From NCBI RefSeq assembly GCF_951230135.1, contig NZ_CATNVC010000020.1, forward strand, positions 1-33,451: a DNA stretch of 33,451 nucleotides. The letters run 5' to 3'. The first letter of the stretch is position 1. The number at the start of each line of letters is the position of its first letter. Below, one piece after another: positions 1,361 through 21,883 of this stretch. The position numbers and the translations under genes are program-made. The DNA comes from Butyricicoccus sp. Marseille-Q5471. GTDB taxonomy: Bacteria; Bacillota; Clostridia; Oscillospirales; Butyricicoccaceae. The notes beneath the pieces are model-generated. The model had not been told where the DNA came from. It saw only the letters and a list, made by a program, of their open reading frames with translations, and made no database searches.

Positions 1361-1364
1361 ATTT

Positions 1365-1387
1365 CAATTAAAACTACGTTTTAATTG
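1365..1387. repeat. Perfect 10-bp AT-rich inverted repeat after the pgk-like gene
   Basis: CAATTAAAAC and GTTTTAATTG flank a 3-base loop, beginning 4 bp after the stop codon. No T-run follows, so it is a weak terminator at best; it could stabilise the mRNA 3' end. The rest of 1388-1621 shows no credible gene. Confidence 0.5.
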
Positions 1388-1621
1388 ATGGATTCTGCGG
1401 CCAGAGATTTGTGCCGCCTAACTTAACCCTCTTCCCATACTTCATGTCTCATTTATATCCGGATAATACCACATCATTGCGGCTTCGGTGTCTTACGAAA
1501 AATTTGCATCATCATTTCGTTGCTATTTCTTGCAATCCATCAAGGATTGCTGCAAAATCGCGCGTTATTCTGACGTAAATTTTTTCGAAATCCACTCTCG
1601 CCCAATAATGCGGTATTATCC

Positions 1622-1664
1622 AAGAAAACGCCTGTCGGGGTTCGAAGCCCCGGCAGGCGTTTTC
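1622..1664. terminator. Strong bidirectional terminator
   Basis: A 16-bp stem (1625-1640 with 1648-1663, one G-T pair) encloses a 7-base loop, with A-tract and T-tract on either side. It lies just beyond the feoB stop codon on the minus strand and can also stop plus-strand transcription from the GAPDH-PGK operon. Confidence 0.9.
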
Positions 1665-1669
1665 TCATG

Positions 1670-2399
1670 TTAAAGAAAGAGCTTCGCGAAGCTCGCAAAG
1701 ACAAAACAGGACGCAAGACCGAGCACTGTCGGAATCACAAGCGCCAATACCGTCCATTTCCAGCTGCCCGTTTCCTTTTTGATGGTCAGCAGCGTGGTCG
1801 AGCACGGCCAGTGCATCAGCGAAAACAGCATGGTGCTGATGGCGGTCACCCACGTCCAGCCGTTGGCGACAAACAAATCGTGCATCGCGGCAAGGCTGTC
1901 GAGTTCAAGGATGCTGCCCTGCGCCATGTATGCCATGATGATGATAGGCACGACGATTTCGTTTGCGGGCAGACCGAGGATGAAGGCGATCAGAATCACG
2001 CCGTCCAGCCCGAGCAGCTTTGCGAAGGGGTCGAGAAATGCCGCGCAGTGGCCGAGCAGGCTCAAATCGCCGACCATGACGTTGGCCATCACCCAAATCA
2101 GCAGTCCCGCCGGCGCGGCGACGACAACCGCGCGCCCGAGCACGAATAGCGTGCGGTCAAAAATTGACCGTACAATCACGCGTCCGATTTGCGGCTTGCG
2201 GTAGGGCGGCAGCTCCAGCGTGAAGGAGGAGGGCATGCCCTTGAGCAGTGTGGCCGACAGCAGGCGGGTAACGGCGAAGGTCATCAGCACGCCCAGAAGA
2301 ATGACCAGCGTCAGCAGTCCCGCTGAAAGCAGCGACGACATCGCCCCGCCGGACACGCCGACAAAGAACATGGTCAATATTGCAATCAGCGTTGGAAAT
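1670..2399 (-). pseudogene. feoB: feoB 3' fragment (ferrous iron transporter B, C-terminal membrane part)
   Basis: The reading frame from the core leftwards encodes FPTLIAILTMFFVG, several hydrophobic helices, LPPYRKP (a hallmark of the FeoB permease), GLPANEIVVP and MHWPCSTTLLTIKKETGSWKW, ending KLFL. FeoB is normally 600-800 residues with an N-terminal G domain; only about 240 C-terminal residues remain here. An apparent TTG start at 2413 uses codons that belong to the inserted element, so no functional start is likely. The adjacent upstream portion of the same gene is found 12.7 kb away at 15084-15209 on the same strand. The 3' end itself looks intact, with a good terminator after it. Confidence 0.9.
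2393..2399. other. Attachment-site core, left end
   Basis: TGGAAAT, identical to the copy at 15084-15090. To the left is feoB coding sequence; to the right is element DNA including CCACCA at 2403-2408, one arm of the reconstructed symmetric attP. Confidence 0.8.
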
Positions 2400-2422
2400 G
2401 CGCCACCAAACAAAGGGCAAAT

Positions 2423-4027
2423 TCAGTCTTCGCTGTAAACATAAATGTGAAGCGTTTCTCCGTCCCATTCGCATTTTTCAACGAGCAGACGGATAAAATC
2501 ACGCTTTTCCTGCACGGAAAACAAATTAAAACTCTCGCCAAACGACGCGAGCGCCGTGCCGCGCCGCCGCCAATCCTCGGCTGCTGCGGCGTTTTGTGCG
2601 GCCTGCGCACGGCGCTCCTCCTCATGCAGCCGTGCCAAATCGGCTTCGAGCACTTGCATGCGCTCGTTGACCCGCGTGAGCAGGGCATCACTCACGTCGC
2701 CGCGCGCCAGAACATCGACCAGATGCTCGGTTTCGTTTTGGCAGGCGGCGATGCGCTGCCGCAAATCGGCGGCGGCATCCGGACTCGTCCGAAGCGCCTG
2801 CTGCAGCTGCTTGAGTAGGGGAACGAGAGCGCCGTCCGGGTGCAGATAGGGGCGCAGTCGTTGGGCGACCAAATCGTCCGCCGTTTGACCGTGCAGATTC
2901 TGACAGTCACATTTCCGTGTGCCGAACTGCAGCTTGCTTTGGCAGATGTAGTCGAAGGCGTTGTCCGCCCGCTGCCCCGAGCGGGGCTTGGCAAACATGC
3001 GCTTGCCGCATCGGCTGCAAATAATCAGGCCGGAGAGCAGCGAGTAGTCGTTATTCGCGTGTGCCGCGGGGCATGCGCGCCGCGCGAGCAGGTGCTGCAC
3101 ACGCACCCAGTCCTTGCCGGACACCAATCCGGCGTGCCGTCCGACGGCGATAATCCACTTTTCGATGCTGTTTCGCGGGGCATGCCCCTTGGTGTAATCG
3201 CGCTTATTATAGGAAAGCAGACCGCGTCCCGCGCCGCAGTCGCCCTCATCAAAGCAAACGTCCGCTTTTTTTTCGCGAAAATAGGCGAGCGCGTCCAAAT
3301 CCGCCGTGCAGTAGACCGGGTTTTGCAGGATTTCCTTGATGCCGAGCAGAGAATAATCGCCGCCCGTGCGGGAGGTGATGCCCTCGACGGCGAGGTGCTG
3401 CTGCACGCCGCGCACGCTTTGCAGCGCGAGAAACTGCGCAAACATATTGGAAACAATCTGAATTTCGCGCGGTTCGGGGCGCAGTCTGCACGAGGTTTTG
3501 ATTTTGCCGTCCAGAATGACCTCCTGCTGTTTTTCCGATATATAGCCGGTCGGCGTTGTGCCGCCGAGCCAGCGTCCGAGCTTTGCGAGCATCAGCATGT
3601 TGTCGCGCACGCGCTCGGCAATCGTTTCGCGCTCGAGCTGCGCAAATACGCTCGCAATGTACATCATCGCCTTGCCCATCGGCGTGGTGGTGTCGAATTT
3701 CTCGCGGATGCAGACAAAGGCGATGCCGTGGGCGTTGAACCGCTCAATCAGGGCGGCGAAGTCGCCCACATTGCGGCTGATACGGTCGAGCCGGTAGCAG
3801 ACCACGCAGTCCGGCCTGTGGCGGTCGATATCGCGCAGCATGCTCTGGAACTGCGGCCGCTCCAGATTTTTGCCCGAAAAGCCTTCATCCTCATAAACAA
3901 CCAGCTCATGCGGTGCGGTATCGGGATAATTTGCCGCAATATAGGCCTTGCAAAGCTCAATTTGGTTTTCAACCGACTCCCCTTTGCCGGTGTAGACCGA
4001 CTTGCGGCTGTAAATCGCAAACTTCAA
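2423..4027 (-). CDS. Large serine recombinase (site-specific integrase)
   Basis: 534 residues. The N-terminal resolvase domain (about 1-145) has YSRKS with catalytic Ser10, YEDEGFSGKNLERP, CYRLDRISRN and FAQLERETIAERV. A recombinase domain follows (about 150-265). Next is a zinc ribbon (ICSRCGKRM, then CQSKLQFGTRKCDC) near residues 335-380, then an Ala/Arg/Glu-rich coiled coil (about 400-480). This is the full architecture of large serine integrases, which integrate and excise DNA between short att sites through a Ser-linked intermediate. Translation probably starts at TTG 4027 after a GGAAGGTGAG ribosome site; no ATG is well placed. The gene lies at the very end of the element it probably moved, and its reading frame is intact. 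Its stop codon is in the same frame as the feoB fragment that follows. Confidence 0.95.
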   Translation of the reverse strand: MKFAIYSRKSVYTGKGESVENQIELCKAYIAANYPDTAPHELVVYEDEGFSGKNLERPQFQSMLRDIDRHRPDCVVCYRLDRISRNVGDFAALIERFNAHGIAFVCIREKFDTTTPMGKAMMYIASVFAQLERETIAERVRDNMLMLAKLGRWLGGTTPTGYISEKQQEVILDGKIKTSCRLRPEPREIQIVSNMFAQFLALQSVRGVQQHLAVEGITSRTGGDYSLLGIKEILQNPVYCTADLDALAYFREKKADVCFDEGDCGAGRGLLSYNKRDYTKGHAPRNSIEKWIIAVGRHAGLVSGKDWVRVQHLLARRACPAAHANNDYSLLSGLIICSRCGKRMFAKPRSGQRADNAFDYICQSKLQFGTRKCDCQNLHGQTADDLVAQRLRPYLHPDGALVPLLKQLQQALRTSPDAAADLRQRIAACQNETEHLVDVLARGDVSDALLTRVNERMQVLEADLARLHEEERRAQAAQNAAAAEDWRRRGTALASFGESFNLFSVQEKRDFIRLLVEKCEWDGETLHIYVYSED

Positions 4028-4050
4028 CGATGCTCACCTTCCTCGGGCCT

Positions 4051-4073
4051 ATTATAGCATAGTGCACTGTGCA
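4051..4073 (-). promoter_or_regulatory. Recombinase promoter -10 and adjacent palindrome
   Basis: TATAAT on the minus strand (4051-4056) lies upstream of the recombinase. Next to it is the 11-bp palindrome TGCACTGTGCA (4063-4073), positioned where a repressor could block the promoter. No good -35 is seen. Confidence 0.5.
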
Positions 4074-4083
4074 AAAAAGCGAG

Positions 4084-4114
4084 ATACCGTCGGCGAAAGG
4101 TCGGCGGTATTTTT
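4084..4114 (+). terminator. Terminator-like hairpin upstream of xylF
   Basis: ATACCG pairs with CGGTAT, with further inner pairs, followed by TTTTTAT on the plus strand. No plus-strand gene ends here, so it could insulate the operon from read-through. Confidence 0.45.
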
Positions 4115-4479
4115 ATCGAGAAAGCAGGGAAAACGAGCATTGTAAAAAATGCAAGTAAAAACTTGTGCAATATGCCGAATGACGTATTTTGAGCAAAAAA
4201 CAGGCCGTTCACAAGAATGCGAATAACGCATTCAAAAAAGGCCGCGAAAACGCCGAAATCAGCCGCAAATGTCCGCAAGAAAAATATAGAAAGCATTTGG
4301 AAAATCCGTATAATTAACAGTACCGATTCAAGTTCAGATTGTCAATGTGACCAAAAAGCGCAGTATTCCGCATCTCTTCCCACGCAGAAACCCAAAGAAA
4401 GACCGGCAGATGTGTGCCGTTCCCAATGGTATAGACCGCAAGAAGCGGTTTATGATACACAAACTGAGGAGGATGAAAA
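4115..4479 (+). promoter_or_regulatory. Leader and promoter region of the xylFGH operon
   Basis: No gene is supported here. TATAAT at 4309-4314 is a candidate -10 with a poor -35, which suggests an activated promoter. A perfect inverted repeat, GAATGCG-AATAA-CGCATTC, lies at about 4214-4232 and could be an operator. The ribosome site GAGGAGG sits just before ATG 4480. Confidence 0.4.
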
Positions 4480-5607
4480 ATGAAAAAGAGATTACTTGCT
4501 TTGATGATGGCAGCAACCATGGCATTTTCCCTGACCGCGTGCACAACCACCGGCAGCGAAGCGACCGGTGACCAGGGCGGCGCAACCGCTTCCGAGGATG
4601 CCGGCGGCGCGAAGGATATCAAGGATATCGTAGTCGGCCTGTCCGTTGGTAACACCACGGAGGAACGCTGGAACCGTGAAATTCAAATGTTTGAGGACTA
4701 TGCCAAGGAAAAAGGCTTTACCCTCAACAAGCAGATTGCAAACAACGATGCAAATAAGCAGGTTTCCCAGTGCGAAAACCTGATCAATCAGGGCGTAGAC
4801 GTGCTGATTGTCCAGTCGCTCGACGCCGAAGCCGCAAGCCCGATTGTAGAGGCAGCGCATGACGCAGGCATCAAGGTCATCGGATATGATCGCTTTATCA
4901 TGAATGCCGATCTGGATTACTATGTCACTTTTGACTCCTACAAGGTAGGTCAGGTTGAGGCTGAATTTGTTGTAAAATCCGCTCCAAAGGGCAACTACAT
5001 CTGGCTTAAGGGCGCACCGGAGGACAACAATGCGCATCTGGTAGCCGCAGGCCAGGAGGATGTGCTCAAGTCTTATATTGACAGCGGCGACATCAAGATT
5101 GTCCTCGACCAGTGGTGCAAGGGTTGGGATCCCAACGAAGCGCTCAAGCATGCCGAGAACGGCCTGACGCTTGCCAATAACGACGTGCAGGGCATCATCG
5201 CCTCCAACGACGGCACCTGCGGCGGCGCGGTGCAGGCACTCGAAGCACAGGGTCTGGCAGGTCAGGTGCCGATTTGCGGACAGGATGCCGATTTGGCGGC
5301 CTGCCAGCGCATTGTAGAGGGCACGCAGACGGGCACGGTATACAAGCCTCTGGCGCCGCTCAACCGCGCAGCTTGTGAACTGGCCGTTGCCATTGCAACC
5401 GGAGCCGACCCGCAGAGCAGCGTAGATTCTACTCTGGGCACCTGGCAGCAGCTGAACAACAACCAGAAGGATGTTGATTCCTTTACGGTTGACGTGGAAG
5501 CGGTAGATAAGGACAATATTTACGATATCATCGTCAAGCGCGATGCATTCCACACCCTAGAAGAAGTCTACGCAAACGTTCCGAAGGATCAGTGGCCGCA
5601 GGCATAA
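4480..5607 (+). CDS. xylF: XylF-type sugar ABC transporter substrate-binding lipoprotein
   Basis: 375 residues with a lipoprotein signal peptide: positive MKKR, a hydrophobic core and the lipobox LTAC with Cys21, so it is anchored outside the membrane. The mature part is a type I periplasmic-binding fold with signatures of the xylose-binding branch: QSLDAEAASPIVEAAHDAG, IGYDRFI, DYYVTFDSYKVG, GWDPNEAL, IIASNDGTCGGAVQAL and CGQDADLAAC. It would capture a monosaccharide or polyol and deliver it to XylH. It is the first gene of a five-gene operon. Downstream genes encode an inositol-dehydrogenase-like enzyme rather than xylose isomerase or xylulokinase, so the true ligand may be a cyclitol or other sugar instead of xylose. 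Confidence 0.88.
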   Translation: MKKRLLALMMAATMAFSLTACTTTGSEATGDQGGATASEDAGGAKDIKDIVVGLSVGNTTEERWNREIQMFEDYAKEKGFTLNKQIANNDANKQVSQCENLINQGVDVLIVQSLDAEAASPIVEAAHDAGIKVIGYDRFIMNADLDYYVTFDSYKVGQVEAEFVVKSAPKGNYIWLKGAPEDNNAHLVAAGQEDVLKSYIDSGDIKIVLDQWCKGWDPNEALKHAENGLTLANNDVQGIIASNDGTCGGAVQALEAQGLAGQVPICGQDADLAACQRIVEGTQTGTVYKPLAPLNRAACELAVAIATGADPQSSVDSTLGTWQQLNNNQKDVDSFTVDVEAVDKDNIYDIIVKRDAFHTLEEVYANVPKDQWPQA

Positions 5608-5630
5608 CTGAGAAACCAATGGTTTGATGC

Positions 5631-5685
5631 AAAAAAGAGCGGGATGTACGGCTGCGGCCTGCAACGCACACCCCACTCTTTTTGC
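5631..5685 (+). terminator. Intra-operon attenuator hairpin between xylF and xylG
   Basis: A long imperfect stem (AAAAAGAGCGGG at the left, CCCACTCTTTTT at the right) ends in a T-run. Partial termination here would give more binding protein than membrane and ATPase subunits, a common arrangement for ABC importers. Confidence 0.65.
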
Positions 5686-5745
5686 CCCAAAAATTTGTGC
5701 TCCGCATAGGAGCGTCCGAATCCGTATCAATTTGGGGGTGTTGTT

Positions 5746-7263
5746 ATGCCGGATTATATCCTGCAACTGCAAAATATTACGAAAATTTTCCCCGGCGTCA
5801 AGGCGCTGAGCGATGTTTCCTTTGGCGTTCAGCGCGGTCACGTGCATGCCCTGGTCGGCGAGAACGGCGCGGGTAAATCCACGCTGATTAAGATTATCAG
5901 CGGCGTTTATCCGTTCGGTACTTATGAAGGCAAGGTCCTGTTTGACGGACAGGAGTGTAAATTTCGAAACATACGCGACGTGGAGAAAACCGGTATCGCC
6001 TGTATCCATCAGGAGCTGAATCTGGTGCCGGATATGAGCGTCAGCGAGAATATTTTCATCAACAATCAGCCGAATAAGTTCGGCGTCATCGATTTTAACG
6101 AGCTGTTTGTCCGCACATCCAAGCTGCTGGGCCGTGTCGGACTGGATACCAACCCGAATGAGCTCATCCGCAACCTCGGCACCGGCAAGCAGCAGCTGGT
6201 CGAGATTGCAAAGGCGCTGTCGCGCGACGTCAAGCTCCTGCTGCTCGACGAGCCGACCTCGTCCCTGACCGAGGCCGAGGTGGATATCCTGCTCGAGCTG
6301 GTGGATAAGCTGCGGCAGCAGGGCGTTACCTGTATTTACATTTCGCACCGTCTGGACGAAATTATGCGTCTGTGCGACGACATTACCGTGCTGCGCGACG
6401 GCCAGACCATCGAAACGCGTGCACGCCGCGACATGGACAAGGATACCATGATTTCGCTCATGGTTGGCCGCGAAATGACCAACTTGTTTCCCCGCGTTCC
6501 GCATACTCGGGGTGAGGTGGGCTTTGAAATCAAGAATTTTACCGTGCCGCATCCTGAAATTTCGGGACGAGATTTGCTCAGCAACATCAGTCTGAAGGCA
6601 TACAAGGGTGAGATTCTGGGCGTCAGCGGCCTGATGGGCGCGGGACGTACCGAGCTGTTCACCGCGGTTTACGGCGCATTCCGCACCAAGGGCACGGGCG
6701 AAGTCTATATCGACGGGAAACAGGTCAGCCTGAACAGTCCGATGGACGCGCTGAAGGAAGGCTATTTTCTGGTCACGGAGGATCGCAAGAAGCTGGGTCT
6801 CAACCTGATTATGAGTATCAAGGAAAACACGACGCTCGCTTCCCTCGACAAGGTTTCAAAGTACGGCATCCTCAATGAGGACGCGGAGGTCGCCTACACG
6901 ACTAAGTATGTCGAGGAAATTCACACCAAGACCCCGAGCATCGAGGTGGCGGTCAACACACTGTCGGGCGGCAACCAGCAAAAGGTCGTACTGGCCAAGG
7001 CGCTGATGAGCGAGCCAAAGGTGATGATTCTCGACGAGCCGACACGCGGCATCGACGTAGGCGCAAAATATGAAATTTATAAAATTATGAACGAACTGGT
7101 GGAAAAAGGCGTGGTTATCATCATGATTTCCTCCGAAATGGAAGAAATTCTGGGTATGAGCGACCGCATCATCACCATCGCGGGCGGCGAGGTCACCGGT
7201 GAGTTCGAGATCGCGGAAGCGACGCAGGAGATTCTCATGCGTGCGGCAGTAGGGAGGGGCTAA
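5746..7263 (+). CDS. xylG: XylG-type sugar ABC transporter ATP-binding protein (double ABC domain)
   Basis: 505 residues with two ABC domains. The first has Walker A GENGAGKST (38-46), HQELNL, the signature-like LGTGKQQLVEIAKAL and Walker B LLLLDEPTSSL. The second has a degenerate Walker A (GLMGAGRTE), a canonical signature LSGGNQQKVVLAKAL and Walker B VMILDEPTRGID. One good and one degenerate nucleotide site is normal for the carbohydrate uptake CUT2 family. The GTYEGKV insertion after Walker A is typical of the xylose branch. It powers import through XylH. ATG 5746 follows GGGGGTG; the next gene begins 3 bp after its stop codon. Confidence 0.93.
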   Translation: MPDYILQLQNITKIFPGVKALSDVSFGVQRGHVHALVGENGAGKSTLIKIISGVYPFGTYEGKVLFDGQECKFRNIRDVEKTGIACIHQELNLVPDMSVSENIFINNQPNKFGVIDFNELFVRTSKLLGRVGLDTNPNELIRNLGTGKQQLVEIAKALSRDVKLLLLDEPTSSLTEAEVDILLELVDKLRQQGVTCIYISHRLDEIMRLCDDITVLRDGQTIETRARRDMDKDTMISLMVGREMTNLFPRVPHTRGEVGFEIKNFTVPHPEISGRDLLSNISLKAYKGEILGVSGLMGAGRTELFTAVYGAFRTKGTGEVYIDGKQVSLNSPMDALKEGYFLVTEDRKKLGLNLIMSIKENTTLASLDKVSKYGILNEDAEVAYTTKYVEEIHTKTPSIEVAVNTLSGGNQQKVVLAKALMSEPKVMILDEPTRGIDVGAKYEIYKIMNELVEKGVVIIMISSEMEEILGMSDRIITIAGGEVTGEFEIAEATQEILMRAAVGRG

Positions 7264-7266
7264 GCT

Positions 7267-8424
7267 ATGTCAAAGACAGAAGGCGTAAAAAAAGCCGGCG
7301 GCAAGAAAATCGACATTCGTACCTTGACGATGGTCATTGTATTGGTCGTGCTGTGGATTGGCTTTACAGCGGCAACCGGCGGTAACTTTATCAGCACCAG
7401 AAACCTGTCCAACCTGATTCGTCAGGCGGCATTCACCGGCATTATGGGCGTTGGCATGACGCTTGTCATCGTAACCGGCGGTATCGACCTGTCGGCCGGT
7501 ATGGTCATGGGCTTCATCGGCTGCATCATGGCGGCCTGTCAGGTGTGGTTCGGCATGTCGACCGCTGCGACCATCGCAATCGGTCTGGTGCTCGGCGCAG
7601 TCATCGGTCTGATGGAGGGCGGCCTGATTGCCTACACCGGCATCGCACCGTTCATCGTTACCCTGGGCGCTCAGCTCATTTTCCGCGGCGGTATGCTGGC
7701 GGTTACGGGCGGACAGACGGTCGCGCCGTTTCAGGAATCGTACAAGTTCTGGGGCACGGCATACGTCACGCCGATGTGGGGCTGGATTCTGGGCATCATC
7801 GCCTGTGCGCTGCTGCTGGTGAGCGAGCTCAACCGCCGCCGTGCCAAGAAAAAGTACAACAGCCTGAGCGAAAGCATGGGCGAAATGCTGGTGCGCTGGG
7901 TGCTGTTCTCCGCGCTGATTATTGCGGGCGTGTTCGTTCTCAATTCCTTTAAGGGCATCCCGATTCCGGTGCTGGTGATGGCGATTGTAGTCGTTATCTT
8001 TACCTTTATTTCGCAGAAAACCACCTTCGGTCGCGGCGTTTACGCAATCGGCGGCAATATTTCCGCGGCGCGTTATGCCGGCATCAATGTAAAGAAAAAC
8101 CTGACGCTGGTCTACTGCCTCAACGGTCTGCTGTGCGCGGTGGCGGCTGTCATTTACACGGCGCGCCTCAACGGCGGCACGGCGCAGGCGGCAAACGGCA
8201 ACTATGAGCTGGATGCCATCGCGGCAGCCGTTATCGGCGGCACCTCAATGACGGGCGGCGTGGGCAAGGTCGCGGGCGCGATTCTCGGCGCGGTTATCAT
8301 GATGTCAATCGACAACGGTATGTCCATGATGAACCTTGACGCGTACTGGCAGTTCATCGTAAAGGGCCTGATTTTGGTCGCGGCGGTCTGGTTTGACACG
8401 CAGACACAGAAGAAGGGCAAGTAA
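7267..8424 (+). CDS. xylH: XylH-type sugar ABC transporter permease
   Basis: 385 residues with about ten hydrophobic segments. CUT2 permease motifs include GMTLVIVTGGIDLSAG, APFIVTLGAQLIFRG, FGRGVYAIGGN, AARYAGINV and AAVIGGTSMTGGVGKVAGA. It forms the membrane channel for the binding protein XylF and the ATPase XylG. The hydrophilic stretch around residues 185-210 (RRRAKKKYNS) and overall length fit XylH better than the shorter RbsC. It starts 3 bp after the xylG stop, with the ribosome site inside the end of xylG. Confidence 0.92.
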   Translation: MSKTEGVKKAGGKKIDIRTLTMVIVLVVLWIGFTAATGGNFISTRNLSNLIRQAAFTGIMGVGMTLVIVTGGIDLSAGMVMGFIGCIMAACQVWFGMSTAATIAIGLVLGAVIGLMEGGLIAYTGIAPFIVTLGAQLIFRGGMLAVTGGQTVAPFQESYKFWGTAYVTPMWGWILGIIACALLLVSELNRRRAKKKYNSLSESMGEMLVRWVLFSALIIAGVFVLNSFKGIPIPVLVMAIVVVIFTFISQKTTFGRGVYAIGGNISAARYAGINVKKNLTLVYCLNGLLCAVAAVIYTARLNGGTAQAANGNYELDAIAAAVIGGTSMTGGVGKVAGAILGAVIMMSIDNGMSMMNLDAYWQFIVKGLILVAAVWFDTQTQKKGK

Positions 8425-8449
8425 AAACACGCGGAAAGAGGGAGTACCA

Positions 8450-9283
8450 ATGCTGACGCTTGGATTCAACGAAGCCACCTGCAAGGAAAACTCATCGGTC
8501 GAGCGGGATTTGGAGCTGTGCGAAAAATACGGGTATGATGCAATTGAATTGCGTCTTGATATGCTCAAGGAGTACCTCAAAACGCATACGATTGGGGATT
8601 TACAGCAGTTTTTTGCAAGCAGCCATCTGAAACCCTTTGCGCTCAATTCCATTGAGGACATCAATTTTAACACGCCCGAGCAGTGGGAAAAGCTGCTTGA
8701 GCTGTTCCGCTTCGGCTGCGAGGTCGCGCGGGACATCGGCAATCCCTACCTCATCGTCGTGCCCACCATGGGGCCAGACATGGACCGCAAAACCGAAGCC
8801 GAGGTGTTTGAGGATTCGGTCAAGGTGCTCGGCGAGCTGGCCGATATTGCGGAGTCCTATGGCGTAAAGCTCTCCTTTGAGCCAATCGGCGACCGTCGCT
8901 GGTGCTGCAACTCCGTGCGGCAGGCATGGGAAATCGTGCAGGCGGTGAACCGTGACAGCGTGGGTCTGACCATCGACTGCATCAATTTCTATATGCATGA
9001 CAAGTGCTCGGATTTGGAATACCTGCGCAAAATTCCGGCGGAAAAGATCTTTGTCTACCACATCAACGACTGCGAGGATTTGCCCCTGCGCGTGCTTGAC
9101 CACTGTGACCGCATCATGCCGGGCAAGGGTTGTATTCCGATTGCGGATATCTCGCGCGTGCTGCGTGAGGTCGGCTACGATGGCCCTGCCTGTCTTGAGC
9201 TGTTCCGCCCCGAATACTGGCGGATGGATGCGGAAGAGATCATTCAAATGGGAGCGGCGTGCTGTGCGCCCTATCTCGGATAA
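8450..9283 (+). CDS. Sugar phosphate isomerase/epimerase-like TIM-barrel protein
   Basis: 277 residues of the AP endonuclease 2 / xylose-isomerase-like barrel. Candidate metal ligands are seen in order: LSFEPIG (Glu), LTIDCINF (Asp), VYHINDC (His) and ACLELF (Glu). The family includes inosose dehydratase and isomerase (IolE, IolI), tagatose/psicose epimerases and 3-keto-sugar enzymes, so the exact reaction is not assigned. ATG 8450 is preceded by GAGGGAG; an earlier in-frame ATG at 8393 lies inside xylH and is unlikely. It sits between the permease and an inositol-dehydrogenase-like gene, which suggests it acts on the imported or oxidised substrate. Confidence 0.85.
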   Translation: MLTLGFNEATCKENSSVERDLELCEKYGYDAIELRLDMLKEYLKTHTIGDLQQFFASSHLKPFALNSIEDINFNTPEQWEKLLELFRFGCEVARDIGNPYLIVVPTMGPDMDRKTEAEVFEDSVKVLGELADIAESYGVKLSFEPIGDRRWCCNSVRQAWEIVQAVNRDSVGLTIDCINFYMHDKCSDLEYLRKIPAEKIFVYHINDCEDLPLRVLDHCDRIMPGKGCIPIADISRVLREVGYDGPACLELFRPEYWRMDAEEIIQMGAACCAPYLG

Positions 9284-9311
9284 ACCATGGTGAAAACAGG
9301 AGGAAACAGCA

Positions 9312-10331
9312 ATGAAGAAAGTTAGAATCGGCGTGCTCGGTGCGGGACGCATCGGCAAGCTGCATATTACAAATCTGGTGCAGTCGGTGCCGAACGCCGA
9401 GGTCGCCGCAATCGCCGACCCGTTTTTAAACGAGGAAACGGTTGCGTTTGCGGAAAGCCTGGGCATTACCAAATGCTCCAAGGATCCGCAGGACATTTTT
9501 TCGGATGACACGATTGACGCGGTGTTCGTCTGCACCTCAACCGATGCGCATGCGGAAATGATCATGCGCGCGGCGGCAGTGGGCAAGCATGTGTTCTGTG
9601 AAAAGCCGATCCACACCGATTTGGCCAAAATCCGGGGCGCAATCGCGGCGGTTGAGCAGGCGGGCGTCAAGCTGCAGGTCGGCTTTGTGCGCCGCTTTGA
9701 CCACAACCACAAAAAAGTGCACGACGTGGTCGCATCGGGTCGGTTGGGCAAGCCGCACATCATCAAGGTATGCTCGCGCGACCCCGATCATCAGCCGATG
9801 TCCTATATTGCCACCTCGGGCGGTATCTTTATGGATATGACCATCCACGATTTTGATATGGTGCGCTACCTGTCGGGCAGCGAGGTCGTCGAGGTCTGCG
9901 CGTTCGGCGCAGCGCTTTCGGGCGCGGGCTATGAGCAGTATGACGATGCGGACACCGCGGTTATCATGCTCCGGTTTGAAAACGGCGCAATCGGCGTGAT
10001 TGACAACAGCCGCGCTTCGCATTACGGCTACGACCAGCGCACCGAGGTACACTGCGACAAGGGCTGCGTGCAGGTCTCCAACGATTTGGACGATCAGGCG
10101 ATGATTTCCTCCGCCGAGGGTGTAGAGGTTGCAAAACCGACCTGGTTCTTCCTGGAACGCTATAATAACGCGTTCATTCAGGAGACAAAGGACTTCGTGG
10201 ACGCCATTCAAAACGATACCGACACGCTGGTCGGTGCAAAGGACGGCCTGATGCCGGTTGCAATCGCCATGGCCGCGGCAAAATCCTACCGCGAGGGCCG
10301 CACCGTCCGTCTGGACGAAGTGCTGGGCTAA
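9312..10331 (+). CDS. iolG: Gfo/Idh/MocA oxidoreductase, inositol 2-dehydrogenase-like
   Basis: 339 residues. The N-terminal Rossmann fold has GVLGAGRIGKLH (8-18). The catalytic-lysine motif CEKPI has Lys98. RRFDHNH and the FMDMTIHDFDMVRYL segment (about 172-186, Asp/His pair) match IolG-type myo-inositol dehydrogenases. Such enzymes oxidise one ring hydroxyl with NAD(P). Other members act on scyllo-inositol, on glucosides at C3, or on sugar acids, so specificity is inferred only. It is the last gene of the operon, with AGGAGG upstream of the ATG and a strong terminator about 95 bp after the stop. A paralogue lies at 22206-23240. Confidence 0.85.
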   Translation: MKKVRIGVLGAGRIGKLHITNLVQSVPNAEVAAIADPFLNEETVAFAESLGITKCSKDPQDIFSDDTIDAVFVCTSTDAHAEMIMRAAAVGKHVFCEKPIHTDLAKIRGAIAAVEQAGVKLQVGFVRRFDHNHKKVHDVVASGRLGKPHIIKVCSRDPDHQPMSYIATSGGIFMDMTIHDFDMVRYLSGSEVVEVCAFGAALSGAGYEQYDDADTAVIMLRFENGAIGVIDNSRASHYGYDQRTEVHCDKGCVQVSNDLDDQAMISSAEGVEVAKPTWFFLERYNNAFIQETKDFVDAIQNDTDTLVGAKDGLMPVAIAMAAAKSYREGRTVRLDEVLG

Positions 10332-10423
10332 GAAAATATTGTTCGGATACCGCACAGGTAACAGCTGTATGGTATCTTCTGCATGCGGGGTGCTGCGGAA
10401 TCTGGAAAACCCGTTTTTGCATA

Positions 10424-10464
10424 AAAAAACAGGGCGAACGGTTTTTCCGTTCGCCCTGTTTTGC
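10424..10464. terminator. Bidirectional terminator between iolG and the DUF3892 gene
   Basis: A perfect 16-bp stem (AAAACAGGGCGAACGG and its complement) with a T5 loop, flanked by A and T tracts. It ends both converging transcripts. Confidence 0.93.
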
Positions 10465-10465
10465 G

Positions 10466-10771
10466 TTACGAAATATCAGCGGGGGAAATCGAAGGCAGAT
10501 TGCTCAGATTGTTGTTTTCCGTGCCGTCGGGAATCGATTTGAGATATTCGGTATCGCCCCGATGCGCGATGCCGACGCCCGCAATCCCGCCCTGCCGCGC
10601 AAGCTCCACAGCCTGCGCTTTTTCAAGCACCGTGTTGTCCGAAAGCTGATAACCCGTCACCTTGCCGCTCGTCTTTACCAGTGCCGTGATGCTGCGGGCG
10701 CTGGGTGCGGCATCCGGGATTTGATCGAGCGTGTTCTGCGCCAGTGCGCTTTGCAGCGAATCGTGTTCCAA
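10466..10771 (-). CDS. DUF3892 family protein
   Basis: 101 residues. The C-terminal 65-70 residues match the DUF3892 pattern: ITALVKTSGKVTGYQL, a short acidic link, ELARQGGIAGVGIAHR, EYLKSIPDGTENNNL and SNLP. No catalytic residues are recognised and the function is unknown. I chose TTG at 10771 because AAAGGAGG lies 8 bases upstream; the in-frame extension to 10804 reads through that ribosome site. It is monocistronic, convergent with the sugar operon, and divergent from the c-di-GMP gene. Confidence 0.75.
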   Translation of the reverse strand: MEHDSLQSALAQNTLDQIPDAAPSARSITALVKTSGKVTGYQLSDNTVLEKAQAVELARQGGIAGVGIAHRGDTEYLKSIPDGTENNNLSNLPSISPADIS

Positions 10772-10951
10772 ACAAAATTCCTCCTTTTCGGTTTCGGGCA
10801 GCACCGCGCAATTGCCTCTTCGGTGCTGTCTTTGCTTATTTTGCGCAGTTCGACTCGTTTCATCATCTTAAAATCTGGTAAGCAAGGAGAAGTAGATTTT
10901 TCAAAGTACTATAATTTTCCTAAATTACGGCGGGTGTCGCCGTGATAAAGG

Positions 10952-10980
10952 TTGAATGTTGTCGAGCGATTCGCTATACT
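10952..10980 (+). promoter_or_regulatory. Sigma-A-type promoter of the c-di-GMP gene
   Basis: TTGAAT (10952-10957) and TATACT (10975-10980) with exact 17-bp spacing, about 75 bp before ATG 11053. Confidence 0.75.
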
Positions 10981-11052
10981 GTAATTAATTCCAATGCTAA
11001 AACGTTTACGCGCAGAGCGGCGTCTATCATAGATCAATACAGGAGCGATTTT

Positions 11053-14040
11053 ATGCCATCCGATAAAACCATTCTCATTGTTGAGGATAACAGTGTCAAC
11101 AGACAGATTTTGTGCAATATTTTGCGCGAGGAATACCAAATCCTTGAGGCGGAAAACGGTCAGCAGGCGCTTGCGCTGTTGCAGGAAAAAACGGATGCGA
11201 TCGCGGTCGTGCTGCTGGACATCCTCATGCCGGTGATGGATGGATATGCGCTTCTGCATCAAATGCACAAGGATCGCGCGCTCGCCAACATTCCGGTGCT
11301 TGTCGCCAGCGGGCAGGAGGATGCGATGGCGGAGGTAAAGGCACTCGCCCTCGGTGCAAACGACTATATCACAAAGCCCTATAAACCGGACGTGATTCGC
11401 CACAAGGTCGCCAACACGATTTTGCTCCGAGAAACCGCGTCGGTCGTGAATGCAGCCCATACGGATGTGCTCACCGGCCTGTATACCAAGGAGTATTTTT
11501 ACCAGTGCGCTGCGGAGCTAATCAGACAAAATCCGGAGCAAAAATTTGATGTCATCTGCTGCGATATCGAACGCTTCAAGCTGGTAAACGACCTGTACGG
11601 CGTGCAGGAGGGCGACGCGCTGCTGCGGCACTTATCCGGCATCGTAAAAGCCAAGGTGCAGGGACACGGTATTTGCTGCCGCATGAGCGGGGACATATTT
11701 TATCTGATGATTAAGCGCCCCAAGGAATATCTGGCGGAGGAGTTTTCCAGCCATGTGGAATACACCAATCAGTACGATATGCATCTCAGAAGCGTCATCA
11801 AATACGGCATTTACCAAATTGATGATGTACGCCTGCCCATTAGCATCATGTGTGACCGCGCCTATCTCGCCGTGGAGTCGGTAAAGGGGAAATTCGATGT
11901 TTACTATGCGTTTTACGACGAATCCATCCGGCGAAAGCTGCTAGAGGAGCAGTTCGTTTTAAGCAATATGGAGTCCGCGCTCAAAAACGGCGAATTTCAG
12001 GTGTATTATCAGCCCAAATATGATTTGCTGTCCCGCACCATCACCAGTGCGGAAGCGTTGGTTCGATGGATTCATCCCGAAAAAGGCCTGATTCCGCCGG
12101 ATCGTTTCATTCCCATCATTGAAAAAAACGGGTTTATCACACAGCTGGACATTTTTGTATGGGAAGAGGTCTGCAAAACCATCCGCGGGTGGATGGACGC
12201 AGGGCAGCCGGTCGTTCCCATCTCGGTCAATATGTCCCGTGCGGACATCTATAATCCGAATATCGATCAGATTTTGATTGCGCTTGTCAAAAAATATCGT
12301 CTTAGTCCCCAGTATCTGTTTCTGGAAATCACCGAAACGGCCTATATGGAAAATGTGGAACAGCTGACGCTTTCGACACACAAGCTGAAAAAACTTGGCT
12401 TTATCATTGAAATGGACGACTTCGGCAGCGGATATTCCTCGCTGAACATGCTGGCGGAGCTGCCGATTGATATTTTGAAGCTCGATATTCGCTTTGTGCA
12501 GGGCGATCAACTCAGCAACAACCGCAAAAGCATTTTGAGCTTTATCATCAGTCTGGCCAAATGGCTCGACCTGCGCATTGTTGCGGAGGGCGTGGAAACG
12601 GAGGATCAGGTCAAGCTGCTGACCAATTTAGGCTGCGAGCGGGCGCAGGGTTACTATTTTTCCAAACCGCTGCCGGTCGATCAGTTTGAAAGACTGCTGC
12701 TGCAAAGCTGCGACAGGCAGAAGGAAGAGTGTGTGGCCGCGTCCACCATCGAGGACGGTGCGTTGCATGGGGAGCAGAGCAGCCTGCTGCTGCTTGATGC
12801 TGAAGCTTCCGACCTTGCCGCGTTTGAGCAGGCATTTGCCGACCAATACCACGTCATCAAGACGGACAGCATGGAAACGAGCTTGGTCATCGTGCAGAAA
12901 TTCCCCACAAGACTCTCCGCAGTGGTGCTGTCCCTGACCGGGGAGACGCAGATGGATGAGATTGCGCAGATGGCCGAGCAGTGCAATGACCGGCAGATTC
13001 CGGTGATTACCCTGCACACATCGGACGCGCTGATTCCGGAATGCCAATCCCACGGCGTTGCGGGCTGCATCCTCAAACCCTATCGGGCGGATTCGCTGGT
13101 GTATCAGGTGCAAAATGTGATTCTGCGCACGCGGATTGCCCATTTGGAGAGAGAAAAGGAAATCAACGCCGCAATCACCGAAATGAAAAAGCGGGCGGAG
13201 GAGGACGCACTCACCGGCCTGCTCAACCGCGCCGAGTTCCAAATTCGGGTTCAGGACTTCTTCCATTACAATAAAATGCCGGAAGGCATTTTCATCATGA
13301 TTGATGTGGATCATTTCAAAAAGGTGAACGATGCTTTCGGGCATATCTCGGGCGATAATGTGCTGCGCGAGATTTCGAAAATGCTCACAAGCTTGTTCCC
13401 GGAAACGAACATCATCAGCCGTTTTGGCGGCGATGAATTTGCGCTTTTCATTCCGTATACTATCGAACAGACGGAACTGGAAGCCAAGCTGCAGGCGCTG
13501 TGCCAAACCATGACCATTGAAGAAAATCACCTGCAGGTGGCGTGCTCGGCGGGCGTCTGCTTTGCGCCGGAGTACGGCATGGACTATGAGCAGCTGTATT
13601 ATAATGCGGATATTGCGCTGCTGAATGCAAAGCATGCAGGCAAGAGCCGCTATGTCATTTTTGAGCATGGACTGAGCGCACCGCTCTATTCTCAGCTGGA
13701 ACAGCGCGCCACTGCGCTGCTCAACGATGTGTCGGACGCGATGTTCGTCTGCGACGGAGAATCCAACGAAATCATCTACGTAAATAATACGGCCTGCCAG
13801 TTGGTCAACAAGAGCAGAAGCAAGTGCATGGGCGCAAGGTGCTATGAAATCTTCTGGGACAGCTGCCAAAATTGCTCGCGCTGTCTGGATATCGACAGGC
13901 ATAAGGACAGCTATTATGAGGAAGACACTGTGCTGAAGGACGGCAAAACGCCGGTGCATGTCAAAGCAAAGCTCGGGGAATGGGACGGAAAAACCGTCAA
14001 AATTCATTACCTGCAGGGCATTCAGCCCCAATCGTTGTGA
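11053..14040 (+). CDS. Multidomain c-di-GMP protein: REC-GGDEF*-EAL-REC*-GGDEF-PAS
   Basis: 995 residues. REC domain (about 4-122) with acidic pocket EDN, phospho-acceptor Asp56 (LLDILMP) and Lys108. First GGDEF (about 130-290) degenerate, SGDIF in place of GGDEF near residue 213. EAL domain (about 299-555) with EALVRW, SVNMSR, ETAY, DDFGSGYSS, LKLD and EGVE, so probably an active c-di-GMP phosphodiesterase. A second REC-like domain (about 576-692) lacks the acceptor Asp (VVLSLTG) but keeps KPY. Second GGDEF (about 715-870) has DALTGLLNR, DVDHFKKVND and RFGGDEF intact, so likely a diguanylate cyclase. A Cys-rich PAS-like tail ends the protein. ATG 11053 follows CAGGAGCG; the upstream in-frame ATG at 10942 precedes the promoter and is rejected. 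No membrane segments are seen. Confidence 0.9.
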   Translation: MPSDKTILIVEDNSVNRQILCNILREEYQILEAENGQQALALLQEKTDAIAVVLLDILMPVMDGYALLHQMHKDRALANIPVLVASGQEDAMAEVKALALGANDYITKPYKPDVIRHKVANTILLRETASVVNAAHTDVLTGLYTKEYFYQCAAELIRQNPEQKFDVICCDIERFKLVNDLYGVQEGDALLRHLSGIVKAKVQGHGICCRMSGDIFYLMIKRPKEYLAEEFSSHVEYTNQYDMHLRSVIKYGIYQIDDVRLPISIMCDRAYLAVESVKGKFDVYYAFYDESIRRKLLEEQFVLSNMESALKNGEFQVYYQPKYDLLSRTITSAEALVRWIHPEKGLIPPDRFIPIIEKNGFITQLDIFVWEEVCKTIRGWMDAGQPVVPISVNMSRADIYNPNIDQILIALVKKYRLSPQYLFLEITETAYMENVEQLTLSTHKLKKLGFIIEMDDFGSGYSSLNMLAELPIDILKLDIRFVQGDQLSNNRKSILSFIISLAKWLDLRIVAEGVETEDQVKLLTNLGCERAQGYYFSKPLPVDQFERLLLQSCDRQKEECVAASTIEDGALHGEQSSLLLLDAEASDLAAFEQAFADQYHVIKTDSMETSLVIVQKFPTRLSAVVLSLTGETQMDEIAQMAEQCNDRQIPVITLHTSDALIPECQSHGVAGCILKPYRADSLVYQVQNVILRTRIAHLEREKEINAAITEMKKRAEEDALTGLLNRAEFQIRVQDFFHYNKMPEGIFIMIDVDHFKKVNDAFGHISGDNVLREISKMLTSLFPETNIISRFGGDEFALFIPYTIEQTELEAKLQALCQTMTIEENHLQVACSAGVCFAPEYGMDYEQLYYNADIALLNAKHAGKSRYVIFEHGLSAPLYSQLEQRATALLNDVSDAMFVCDGESNEIIYVNNTACQLVNKSRSKCMGARCYEIFWDSCQNCSRCLDIDRHKDSYYEEDTVLKDGKTPVHVKAKLGEWDGKTVKIHYLQGIQPQSL

Positions 14041-14052
14041 TTCTGAACATGT

Positions 14053-14097
14053 AAAAAGAGGAACAGACCGTTTTTGTCGGTTTGTTCCTCTTTTTTC
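14053..14097. terminator. Bidirectional terminator
   Basis: AAAAAGAGGAACA...TGTTCCTCTTTTTT forms an about 18-bp stem with one mismatch and a T-rich loop. It serves the c-di-GMP gene and the convergent PAS-GGDEF remnant. Confidence 0.9.
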
Positions 14098-14099
14098 GT

Positions 14100-14656
14100 G
14101 AAAATGCGTGCGCGGAGCATCACGGCGGCTGCCGTTTTGCAGGATGCTGCGTCGGCATGATTCAATACAATCAGGAACTCATCTCCGCCGATGCGAATCA
14201 CGTCGTCGACCTCCGCGGTGTTGCGGGTCAGAATCTGTGCACTTTGGTCAGCAGATCAAGCATGCACTTTTCGCGATAAAACTCGCGCAGCATGACCAGC
14301 TCGGTTACATCAATGACCGTGCCGACCAAGCCGACAACCTCACCGCTATGGTCGAATAAAGGCTCTCGGGCAATTTCGTAATAGTACGCTTTATCGCCGA
14401 ACTGCATCCGTTCAATATATTTATAAGGCGTTTTTTCACGTATTACGCGCAAATCATCGGCTAAGAATTTCTTGCCAAGGGCCTTATAGGGCTGAATATC
14501 CACATCGGTCTTTCCAATCAGGTCGATGCCGCTGAGGTGAGAGCAACCATTGCTCGCCAGCAGATAACGGCATTCCGTGTCCTTGCATAACAGCTTGACG
14601 GGTGCTTGCCGCACGAGCTACAACAGTTGCTTCTTGTCAATCGCCGCAATGTCCAT
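14100..14656 (-). pseudogene. Broken PAS-GGDEF (diguanylate cyclase) gene
   Basis: A start ATG at 14656 with GGAGGTG upstream gives MDIAAIDKKQLL, then a TAG (14618-14620). The frame continues after it as LVRQAPVKLLCKDTECRY through a PAS domain (IGKTDVDI, GLVGTVIDVTEL) into the beginning of a GGDEF domain (MLDLLTKV). The frame stops at 14228. Most of the cyclase domain is missing; a shifted frame then shows VIRIGGDEFLIVL, the GGDEF active-site loop. The gene therefore carries a nonsense codon plus an internal deletion or frameshift. Its promoter still looks good. If any product is made, it would be the PAS piece alone from GTG 14614, for which no ribosome site is evident. Confidence 0.8.
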
Positions 14657-14705
14657 GGCACACCTCCGGTAGATTGATTCGAACTGAATTAATCCTATAT
14701 TTAAC

Positions 14706-14734
14706 AGTATATTTGATAGATTTGTTTGTGTAAA
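14706..14734 (-). promoter_or_regulatory. Promoter of the PAS-GGDEF remnant
   Basis: On the minus strand TTTACA and TATACT are spaced 17 bp apart, about 50 bp upstream of ATG 14656. Confidence 0.7.
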
Positions 14735-14828
14735 CCTTCTTGTGGGAATCCTGCCGGCTGTGTTGTGTGCATATCGGGACGGACCGCACAATAAGCTAAT
14801 ATCAGTACGGGCAAGGGGGAGGGAGGAG

Positions 14829-15020
14829 GTGCCGCCTATTGCGAAAAATAAGCCAAAGCAGGTCGTTTTACATACTGCCGCCCGCCGGGAGCCTGCGCAG
14901 GACAGCATCAGCGAACTATATGTGCGCTTCCTCAAACGAAAACTGGCGGAGGAGCACCTGACCGGCATGCAGGCGAGCGCTGTCCTTGACGGCATCTTAG
15001 ACGCATTGCAGCATCTGTAA
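14829..15020 (+). CDS. Small basic protein next to the right att site (unknown function)
   Basis: 63 codons if started at GTG 14829, which follows the purine-rich AAGGGGGAGGG at 14813-14823. The frame is open from 14742, but no better start is seen. The N-terminal third is basic and the C-terminal half ([20 protein letters not shown], then a short leucine-rich tail) is probably amphipathic helix. I do not recognise a family. It has its own terminator and lies 63 bp from the right attachment core, between the cargo and the element end. That is a position where a recombination directionality factor could sit; this is only a suggestion. Confidence 0.5.
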
Positions 15021-15031
15021 CACAAAACGAT

Positions 15032-15067
15032 TGCCACACCCATTTTGAAGGGCGCGGCAGTTTTTTT
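15032..15067 (+). terminator. Terminator after the small ORF
   Basis: TGCCACACCC pairs with GGGCGCGGCA (two mismatches), followed by seven T residues. Confidence 0.7.
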
Positions 15068-15083
15068 GCCATAACGATGGTGG

Positions 15084-15090
15084 TGGAAAT
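15084..15090. other. Attachment-site core, right end
   Basis: TGGAAAT, the second copy of the left core. TGG triplets precede it (15078-15086) and form the other arm of the reconstructed attP. To its right feoB coding sequence resumes. Confidence 0.8.
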
Positions 15091-15209
15091 CGCCCGTTGC
15101 AGGGCACAAAGCTGTTGGTTAAAATGGCGAGCAGCCGCTCGCGCGGTGAGTCGATGATGCGGCAGCCAATCACGCCTGCTGCGTTGCAGCCGAACCCCAT
15201 CGACATGCT
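15084..15209 (-). pseudogene. feoB: feoB internal fragment
   Basis: The minus strand encodes, in frame, [27 protein letters not shown] and FVPCNGRFP, the conserved stretch of FeoB that immediately precedes the fragment at 1670-2399. At the core it joins that fragment in frame. At its other end the similarity stops near 15209 (codon for Ser before MSMGFGC), where unrelated DNA begins. The N-terminal G domain of FeoB is not found anywhere in the rest of the window. So feoB has been disrupted twice, or the second insertion or deletion extends beyond this window. Confidence 0.85.
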
Positions 15210-15481
15210 TGGGTAAAAAGTGGATGCCAAAATGGAAGGGCCAGTGGGAGGGCGTAGAACCACATTCGGCAACAGCAGAAAATTTGAGTTATTTTGTATA
15301 TTATATCGTTATTTTAGCTGTTTGTCAAAAGAACGACTGCCTTTTTGCATTCTATTATATGTCCTGTTTCCCAAGTCAACTTACAAAATGAATCGGCTCT
15401 CAACAAGGTTATAGAGGGGTTAAACAATGAATTTTCATAATTCAGTTTTTCTCCAACCTGTGACAATGGAGGAGATTCATC
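15210..15481 (+). other. Left junction of second mobile region; non-coding
   Basis: AT-rich sequence with no supported gene. Base composition drops relative to the feoB side, consistent with foreign DNA starting near 15210. The ribosome site GGAGGAG precedes the helicase start at 15482. Confidence 0.45.
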
Positions 15482-20911: not shown

Positions 20912-21805
20912 TCAGGTATTTTCCGTGTGCAGCGTTCGTTGACGATATTCTCGCGGTGTGTTGCCGACATGCTGTTTGAAACTGCGGATAAAGTGTTGTG
21001 TGCTGTTAAAGCCGCAGGCCTCTCCAATTCGTTCGACTGCCTGCCCTGTTGAGGCGAGCAATTGACGGGCAAGCGTGACACGCAAGTGAACTTGATACGC
21101 ATGCGGGGACATATTGGTGAATTTACGGAAAAGGCGGCTGAAATAAAACGGACTGAGGTTCACGACTTCGGCAAGATCCTCGACCGTAAGAACTTCGGTA
21201 AAATGCTGCTCCAAGTAGGAGATCGCCTGCGCAATAACGGTATCCTGCGGATTGTAGGCGGATGCAGATTGTGCGGCAAGCTCGCTCAGGATGATGTGGA
21301 TTTGGGCGGAAATCTTGTGTTCATTCAGCTGTCCGTCATATGCCAACCCGACCAAGGTGTTCATTGCGCTTTCGATGGCAATTTGTTTGGCCGGATGCAT
21401 TAAATATCCATAGCGTTCGGTAAGAATTTCATAAAACGCCTCGCTGCTGCTGCCCTCAAAATGAAAGTAGCGGAACGAGAGCGGCGTAAGCGCACGGTAT
21501 ACATGCGGTTTTTTGCAGTCGATAAAGACAATGTCGCGTGCATGGGCGACGAAGGTTTGGCCGTTGAATTGCACTTGCAGTTCGCCGGTATCTACCAAAA
21601 GCAGCAAATAGTAATCATAATTATCGCGGCTAATGGCGTATGCCGGCGTGCAGAAGAAATGACCGACATAGGGCGCGTAATACAGCGCCTTCTTGGCAAA
21701 GGCAGAAGGTAAATGCAGATACATCTGTGAGCTTGGAAGCACGCCGGTATCTGATTCCGGCAGGCTGCATGCCGTAGACATGGGGTTGGGTTTGGCGAAT
21801 TCCAT
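20912..21805 (-). CDS. AraC-family transcriptional regulator 1
   Basis: 297 residues. The N-terminal cupin-like sensor region (about 25-170) includes LLLVDTGELQVQFNG and DIVFIDCKKPHVY. The C-terminal double helix-turn-helix (about 195-297) includes VEDLAEVVNLSPFYFSRLF, SPHAYQ, RIGEACGFNSTQHFIRSF and TPREYRQ. I chose ATG 21805 because AAGGAGGAG lies at the right distance; an in-frame start at 21826 has no such site. It is divergent from the iolG-like gene it probably controls in response to a sugar or cyclitol. It is a paralogue of the regulator at 30173-31018. Confidence 0.9.
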   Translation of the reverse strand: MEFAKPNPMSTACSLPESDTGVLPSSQMYLHLPSAFAKKALYYAPYVGHFFCTPAYAISRDNYDYYLLLLVDTGELQVQFNGQTFVAHARDIVFIDCKKPHVYRALTPLSFRYFHFEGSSSEAFYEILTERYGYLMHPAKQIAIESAMNTLVGLAYDGQLNEHKISAQIHIILSELAAQSASAYNPQDTVIAQAISYLEQHFTEVLTVEDLAEVVNLSPFYFSRLFRKFTNMSPHAYQVHLRVTLARQLLASTGQAVERIGEACGFNSTQHFIRSFKQHVGNTPREYRQRTLHTENT

Positions 21806-21842
21806 GTGATGCTCCTCCTTGTGCAATTCATCTATTTTTCTC

Positions 21843-21873: not shown

Positions 21874-21883
21874 AGAAAAACAG

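Follow-up and report, generated by a model that had tools for sequence, protein, structure and literature searches.

The stretch of DNA analysed here, referred to as the window, is the whole 33,451-bp contig C20 (NZ_CATNVC010000020.1) of the 43-contig assembly of Butyricicoccus sp. Marseille-Q5471 (genome G000), in which the ferrous-iron transporter gene feoB is interrupted by a 12.7-kb island with the gene of a large serine recombinase (LSR) at one end. We numbered the feoB pieces by the intact FeoB of locus L004, which served as the reference, and call the codon at which the island sits site A. The features that define the island and its surroundings are the following:

1670..2413, minus strand: C-terminal feoB piece, corresponding to about residues 475-717 of intact FeoB (Pfam Gate 1.9e-15, FeoB_C 1.6e-14; tblastn 71% to the L004 FeoB)
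2393..2399, no strand: left junction core TGGAAAT (site A), read from the sequence; the attP arm of the element runs on to about 2421 and is common to other site-A elements
2423..4027, minus strand: LSR of 534 aa (Resolvase 8e-36, Recombinase 2.3e-13, Zn_ribbon_recom 2.2e-10), with relatives at the same feoB codon
14829..15020, plus strand: conserved small open reading frame (ORF) that points towards the right junction; a candidate recombination directionality factor, start codon uncertain (profile matches in site-A LSR loci; two-helix model)
15084..15090, no strand: right junction core TGGAAAT (site A), read from the sequence; similar arms in other elements
15084..15209, minus strand: middle feoB piece, residues ~438-479 (79% over 42 residues to the L004 FeoB)
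15201..15227, no strand: second insertion junction (site B), core and arm CTTGGGTAAAAAGTGGATGC of a different LSR element; matching arm on contig C4 after the feoB N-terminal part and in congeners

The core TGGAAAT stands at 2393-2399 and again at 15084-15090, which gives the element a length of 12,691 bp, and the stop codon of the LSR gene lies 24 bp from the left core; an earlier sequence-only reading of this DNA was accurate in both respects. It had also proposed that the flanking feoB pieces are adjacent and in frame, and since the left piece corresponds to residues 475-717 and the right one to residues 438-479 of the L004 protein, they are indeed adjacent segments of one FeoB. The island bears the marks of an LSR element, namely Resolvase, Recombinase and zinc-ribbon recombinase domains close to one end and an inverted-repeat attP with a short core shared with attB. 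Sixteen of the 28 arm positions of the window attP pair with each other, a number reached by 0.08% of 20,000 random pairs; the family arms, taken by eye from aligned junctions, are TTGCCCTTTGnnTGGTGGCGCA-TT-TGCGCCACCAnnCAAAGGGCAA, and similar arms recur in relatives. The empty site that such an insertion implies was found in relatives as well: among the 25 genomes searched in the genus, all 22 other feoB-bearing members have a feoB that runs through site A uninterrupted, this feoB type not being found in G019 and G020. Nor are the cargo genes always present at this locus, since an operon with 82% DNA identity to the import and oxidation operon of the island stands outside feoB in G010 and G024. 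We conclude that the insertion of a 12.7-kb island into feoB is real.

We searched named genomes with the window LSR and kept 80 loci out of 112 confirmed relatives, with flanks limited to 10 kb, which bounds the element sizes that are visible. By the criterion used, a feoB piece ends or starts at site A in 54 of the 80 loci (50 with the C-terminal part and four with the N-terminal part only), and neither part does so in 26. Of the 58 loci whose LSR is at least 44% identical to that of the window, 53 have feoB interrupted at this codon, which means that the arrangement in the window is not due to chance; below 44% this holds for one locus of 22 (L220). As for the five misses, the sequences of L168, L177 and L202 end no more than 125 nt from the recombinase, FeoB is partial in L185 (residues 618-715), and L163 is a miss without such an explanation. 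In 46 of the 50 loci no more than 340 nt separate the LSR end from the start of the FeoB C-terminal part, the exceptions being L167, L173 and L216, where the distance is 3.4-5.3 kb, and L182, where the layout is mirrored. All 50 C-terminal parts are open from residue 482 to their own stop (228-240 aa), the one stop within the match of L165 being located before the junction, and the 14 N-terminal parts have no stops in their matched stretches. Ten relatives with both junctions visible span 2.7-10.7 kb, while the N-terminal part lies outside the view in 40 site-A loci, so that there either the element exceeds the flank or the contig ends. The sequence-only reading had called a metabolic island brought into feoB by a single LSR unusual; given the 54 loci with feoB cut at the same codon this wording needs to be changed. 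The cargo operon of the window, as a whole, has no match in the 80 named loci. A phage or plasmid origin of the LSR was considered and rejected, the best listed phage match being 37% and the best listed plasmid match 43%; among 26 viral contigs, 25 carry LSRs of 34-39% identity, and the remaining one, L267, at 55%, is itself flanked by feoB. Next to the nearest relative of the window LSR, at L147 7734-9824, we observed two genes of housekeeping type, for a hexapeptide transferase (perhaps CysE) and a cysteinyl-tRNA synthetase. Carriers that are in culture include Lacrimispora amygdalina, Flavonifractor sp. An10 and Neobittarella massiliensis.

Behind their similar ends the site-A elements carry different cargo. 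Complete elements hold malate dehydrogenase and malic enzyme genes (L157), a GH42 protein, a binding protein and a histidine kinase (L155), lysine-pathway genes (L215) or a CoA transferase (L171). What L174, L176 and L178 have in common is the LSR-feoB end together with some 300 bp in the region of the small ORF; one further stretch of 830 bp is shared by L174 and L178, and the stretch common to L150 and L154 is only 2.6 kb long and covers the LSR and feoB. LSR copies can also be far more alike than the feoB genes that host them: the LSRs of L152, L153 and L154 are 98-99% identical next to FeoB C-terminal parts of 59-60% identity, and the 94% DNA match of L152 with L154 extends as far as the junction and no further. 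In four of eight pairs (L150/L169, L174/L179, L184/L186 and L149/L151) the synonymous divergence (dS) of the LSR is below that of feoB, in the last of them 0.10 against 1.88. Elements of the family have moved between species in some cases, a statement that holds for relatives and not for the window element itself, and in others they may have resided longer. The region beside the LSR that L154 has in common with L152 encodes a SMODS cyclase and a SLATT effector, a CBASS-like pair; within L154 3561-9665 of Eisenbergiella porci, next to the feoB recombinase, this pair is accompanied by a HerA/FtsK-like protein and a reverse transcriptase.

At the end opposite the LSR, the small ORF recurs with the family. 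Its profile gave 39 matches, 38 in the 80 named loci and one in the window, and none in 33,374 shuffled segments or in the site-B and viral-contig loci examined. It is mostly found at the element end far from the LSR, facing outward, and in seven of the 11 elements with both junctions visible (L155, L157, L164, L170, L182, L221 and the window) it lies within 140 nt of the junction; in L171 the distance is 2.4 kb. The structure model consists of two helices (pLDDT 83.7, pTM 0.53). Judged by place, size and conservation, this protein is a candidate for the directionality factor of the element.

The genes between the LSR and the small ORF are these:

4480..5607, plus strand: sugar-type periplasmic-binding protein (Peripla_BP_4 3.4e-62; xylF model below its cut-off)
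5746..7263, plus strand: sugar-type ABC transporter ATPase (ABC_tran 1.7e-53)
7267..8424, plus strand: sugar-type ABC transporter permease (BPD_transp_2 6.8e-30)
8456..9283, plus strand: TIM-barrel isomerase/epimerase-like protein (AP_endonuc_2 2.7e-37; all NCBIfam matches below cut-off)
9312..10331, plus strand: inositol 2-dehydrogenase (IolG) family protein (TIGR04380 423 bits, cut-off 355)
10466..10804, minus strand: DUF3892 protein (PF13031 1.2e-17)
10942..14040, plus strand: receiver, GGDEF, EAL, GGDEF and PAS protein of c-di-GMP turnover (Response_reg, GGDEF in two stretches, EAL and PAS matches)
14228..14614, minus strand: PAS-domain ORF, by eye probably a remnant (PAS_4 1.3e-10)

Gene by gene, the domain matches agree with the earlier description of the cargo as an import and oxidation operon, a DUF3892 gene and a c-di-GMP protein without the usual phage or conjugation set: no Pfam match to a relaxase, a coupling or conjugation protein, a capsid, a terminase or another phage structural or packaging protein was found among the scanned ORFs of 2423-15083, where oriT was not searched for. 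In the G010 operon, the one that was scanned, a kinase, a DUF4867 gene and a fucose-isomerase-like gene stand between the two halves. The phosphoketolase that flanks the G010 operon has no match in G000, which has no bearing on the original chromosomal place of the operon. L213, a locus not at feoB, gave distant matches (27-40%) to the transporter genes of the window.

The feoB piece on the right of the island is just about 42 codons long and ends at a second insertion site, 15201-15227, which the sequence-only reading overlooked. The N-terminal part of the gene (residues 5-442) lies on contig C4 at 210874-212184 and stops at ..TMCMG, and both cut ends of site B bear the arms of another attP, with GGATGC/GCATCC ends as in congeners. 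Cuts at site A (codon ~478) and at site B (codon ~440) divide the feoB of the source genome into three pieces. Since the N-terminal part is cut off by a second LSR element at site B, removal of the island alone would not restore feoB, and an intact feoB upon excision of the site-A island alone is ruled out. The proposal that the insertion gained a nutrient route at the price of feoB is unsupported: the gene is also cut at site B, and the genome holds two further full-length feoB frames, of 729 aa on C5 and 709 aa on C6. C4:230866-232497 encodes a recombinase of the site-B type that shares 62% identity with the one of G012, and if C4 and C20 adjoin, element B would comprise at least 34.8 kb of C4 and 18.2 kb of the window. 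On this side of the window we observed, at 15482-17724, a RecQ-like helicase gene (DEAD, Helicase_C; DpdF-like PADLOC matches) overlapping that of a 355-aa protein without a significant family match, an IS110-family transposase at 19470-20576, and at 20912-32900 a second operon of sugar/inositol type, assigned partly by eye, with AraC-type regulators, Gfo/Idh and TIM-barrel-like proteins, an ABC transporter, an SDR protein and a sodium:solute symporter. Beyond the feoB N-terminal part, C4:224611-228336 holds three genes that by eye resemble those of the [FeFe]-hydrogenase maturases HydE, HydG and HydF, the sole model match of the HydF-like one being FeoB_N.

Site B is widely occupied in the genus. 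It is split in 18 of the 23 feoB-bearing members, G000 included (17 with both halves and G013 with the C-terminal part alone), and uninterrupted in the other five, G007, G009, G015, G017 and G021. Compared by eye, 15 of the 18 carry arms of the GCATCC type, and G008 and the pair G010/G024 have other arms with the same core. Over 66 pairs from 12 genomes the distance between site-B LSRs tracks that between FeoB proteins (rho 0.83 for the N-terminal and 0.75 for the C-terminal part), and in 23 of the 24 listed pairs the dS of the LSR exceeds that of both feoB halves. The ratio of nonsynonymous to synonymous divergence (dN/dS) of the split halves, 0.04-0.29 in the listed pairs with dS above 0.3, is not raised over the 0.16-0.31 of intact pairs. 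This pattern is compatible with long residence and with a feoB still in use, and proves neither.

Across the order, 295 genomes were searched, and counts were made by eye among the 127 listed down to the row of G000, sites being assigned from match ranges; L296-L300 and L016 are the loci that were inspected directly. The feoB match runs through both sites in 111 of the 127, and the other 16 comprise 11 interrupted at site B, three interrupted at site A, G000 with both sites interrupted, and G114, whose match is broken off by the end of a contig. One of the 111, G041 (L016 1501-3723), has sites A and B uninterrupted and a FeoB match that starts at residue 398; some 340 nt before that start lies another serine recombinase, which perhaps marks a third insertion site further upstream. 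In L296, L297 and L298 (G121, G155 and G308) feoB ends at site A and no relative of the window LSR was found in the stretches examined, the contigs of the latter two ending within about 350 nt. On L267, a 4,998-bp contig from a viral collection, positions 208-3647 hold the 55% relative of the window LSR, then FeoB 435-478 and then a site-B-type recombinase, 47-48% identical to those of G012 and G004; judged by this order of genes, its double occupation is the same arrangement as that of the window.

In the mechanism we propose, the LSR joined a palindromic attP to an attB located where feoB encodes GRFP|TLIA, with the family arms TTGCCCTTTG..TGGTGGCGCA / TGCGCCACCA..CAAAGGGCAA and crossover at the central TT. 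The island has the LSR at one end, a small two-helix protein, probably the directionality factor, at the other, and exchangeable cargo between them, which here would serve cyclitol or sugar uptake and oxidation and includes c-di-GMP genes. The family is feoB-specific, occurs mostly in Clostridia and moves between species, and because no conjugation or phage gene was recognised in the island, its relatives being partly scanned, transfer probably depends on functions supplied from elsewhere. About 40 codons upstream, the same feoB has also been entered by a second LSR element, whose recombinase is of another family. The boundaries, the empty sites, the common target, the varied cargo and the LSR copies much more alike than their host feoB genes are observed. 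Excision, the role in directionality, the route of transfer and the substrate of the cargo are what we infer from these arrangements.

We consider it very probable that 2393-15083 of the window is a site-specifically integrated island whose LSR belongs to a widespread and mobile, feoB-specific, cargo-exchanging family, with related recombinases at this spot in dozens of other species. Several observations weigh against this. Many of the loci come from metagenome bins. No excised circle or rejoined site was seen; the site-B attP pattern was found in none of the 25 genus genomes, the site-A attP not having been searched for. L184, L186 and L215, three complete elements among the 11 with both junctions visible, gave no match to the small ORF, which itself has no significant family match and no match at E <= 0.001 in a fold search. 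In the other four of the eight site-A pairs, L155/L156 (1.75 against 0.22), L151/L156, L166/L167 and L157/L158, the dS of the LSR is above that of feoB; the identities of LSR and FeoB correlate (rho 0.48, 1275 pairs), and topology tests that compared the LSR with FeoB did not reach significance (p 0.243, 0.141, 0.428 and 0.076), so that the case for movement rests on the identity contrasts.

The four pairs with the higher LSR dS also speak for a different reading, in which the element is retained as a programmed or phase-variable switch that turns feoB off and on by excision, like the skin element in sigK or the fdxN element. The open reading frames of the 50 C-terminal and 14 N-terminal parts would fit it, as would the linked LSR and FeoB distances, the higher LSR dS and the dN/dS at site B. 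However, insertions can be recent, so intact feoB halves need no switch; half of the site-A pairs have the lower LSR dS, near-identical LSRs sit in the dissimilar feoB genes of L152-L154, and in the source genome feoB is cut twice beside two other full-length frames, and neither insertion is present in 111 of the 127 genomes listed for the order. A switch seems improbable to us. That the island is a static remnant, an old LSR element no longer able to move with cargo merely resident, we regard as rather doubtful: a second insertion adjoins it, the PAS frame looks like a remnant and the operon is without the kinase, DUF4867 and isomerase genes present in G010, but the LSR is of full length with its three domains, the arms at both junctions conform to the family pattern and no stop interrupts the small ORF.

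It is most unlikely that the 12.7 kb are one segment of a larger conjugative element or prophage. The size of the neighbouring site-B element, should the contigs adjoin, the FtsK/HerA-like gene near the L154 recombinase and the 40 site-A loci with the N-terminal part out of view could be so read, yet both junctions of the island are defined, the ten relatives are compact within the 10-kb flanks, the scanned ORFs gave no relaxase, coupling, capsid or terminase match, and the best listed phage and plasmid LSRs do not exceed 43%. An assembly artefact or a rearrangement of the gene instead of an insertion might be suspected in a genome of 43 contigs with feoB spread over two, and is hardly conceivable in view of the same junction, orientation and arms in many separate assemblies, isolates included. 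The site-specific island of a feoB-specific LSR family is the reading we retain.

Serine recombinase elements that split a gene are exemplified by the skin element, with SpoIVCA and sigK, and by the cyanobacterial fdxN element with XisF, and in SCC cassettes Ccr serine recombinases bring exchangeable cargo to one codon of rlmH. The window LSR is matched by the XisF model at 118.9 bits, below the NCBIfam cut-off of 375, so it is no XisF equivalog; developmental excision is a feature of skin and fdxN, whereas the feoB islands have variable cargo and signs of movement between species. With SCC the islands have in common a serine recombinase and exchangeable cargo at one codon, but the CcrB model reaches 109 bits against a cut-off of 900 and the target is feoB rather than rlmH. 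The integrative and mobilizable elements of Firmicutes with serine recombinases (PMC5704250) are similar in having a single site-specific serine recombinase, short core repeats and insertion within a dispensable protein gene; in the island, by comparison, no relaxase was recognised, and its target, feoB, is a word absent from the main text of that review. LSRs with predicted single-gene targets (Durrant et al. 2022, PMC10083194) have likewise been grouped by one conserved target gene, with att sites deduced from junctions; the main text of that study is without feoB, ferrous or iron transport, and its supplementary tables may list such LSRs. By word search, feoB does not occur in the main texts of PMC10083194, PMC12884075 and PMC5704250, supplementary tables being outside this scope, and among the open-licence papers listed none, by title and abstract, concerns a serine recombinase in feoB. 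The kind of element is known; what makes this one a novel form of it are the feoB target, the double occupation of two sites, the variation of cargo between similar ends and the small protein that may be the partner of the LSR.

The island family is compact and has a fixed address, deducible attB and attP sites and a candidate directionality factor, which makes it a model for the movement of metabolic and defence cargo in Clostridia; integrases from it might also be of use where a strain has few genetic tools. Before a split feoB, be it in a genome or in a metagenome bin, is taken for decay, it is worth checking for an island at codon ~440 or 478. Tentatively, and as a possibility that we would not yet call likely, feoB may be a shared docking gene of Clostridia, with two codon-exact sites that lie about 40 codons from each other, and perhaps a third one upstream, used by several distinct serine recombinase families whose islands turn over so quickly that selection on feoB persists; a change of iron-uptake status would then go together with an exchange of cargo, possibly reversibly within a population.

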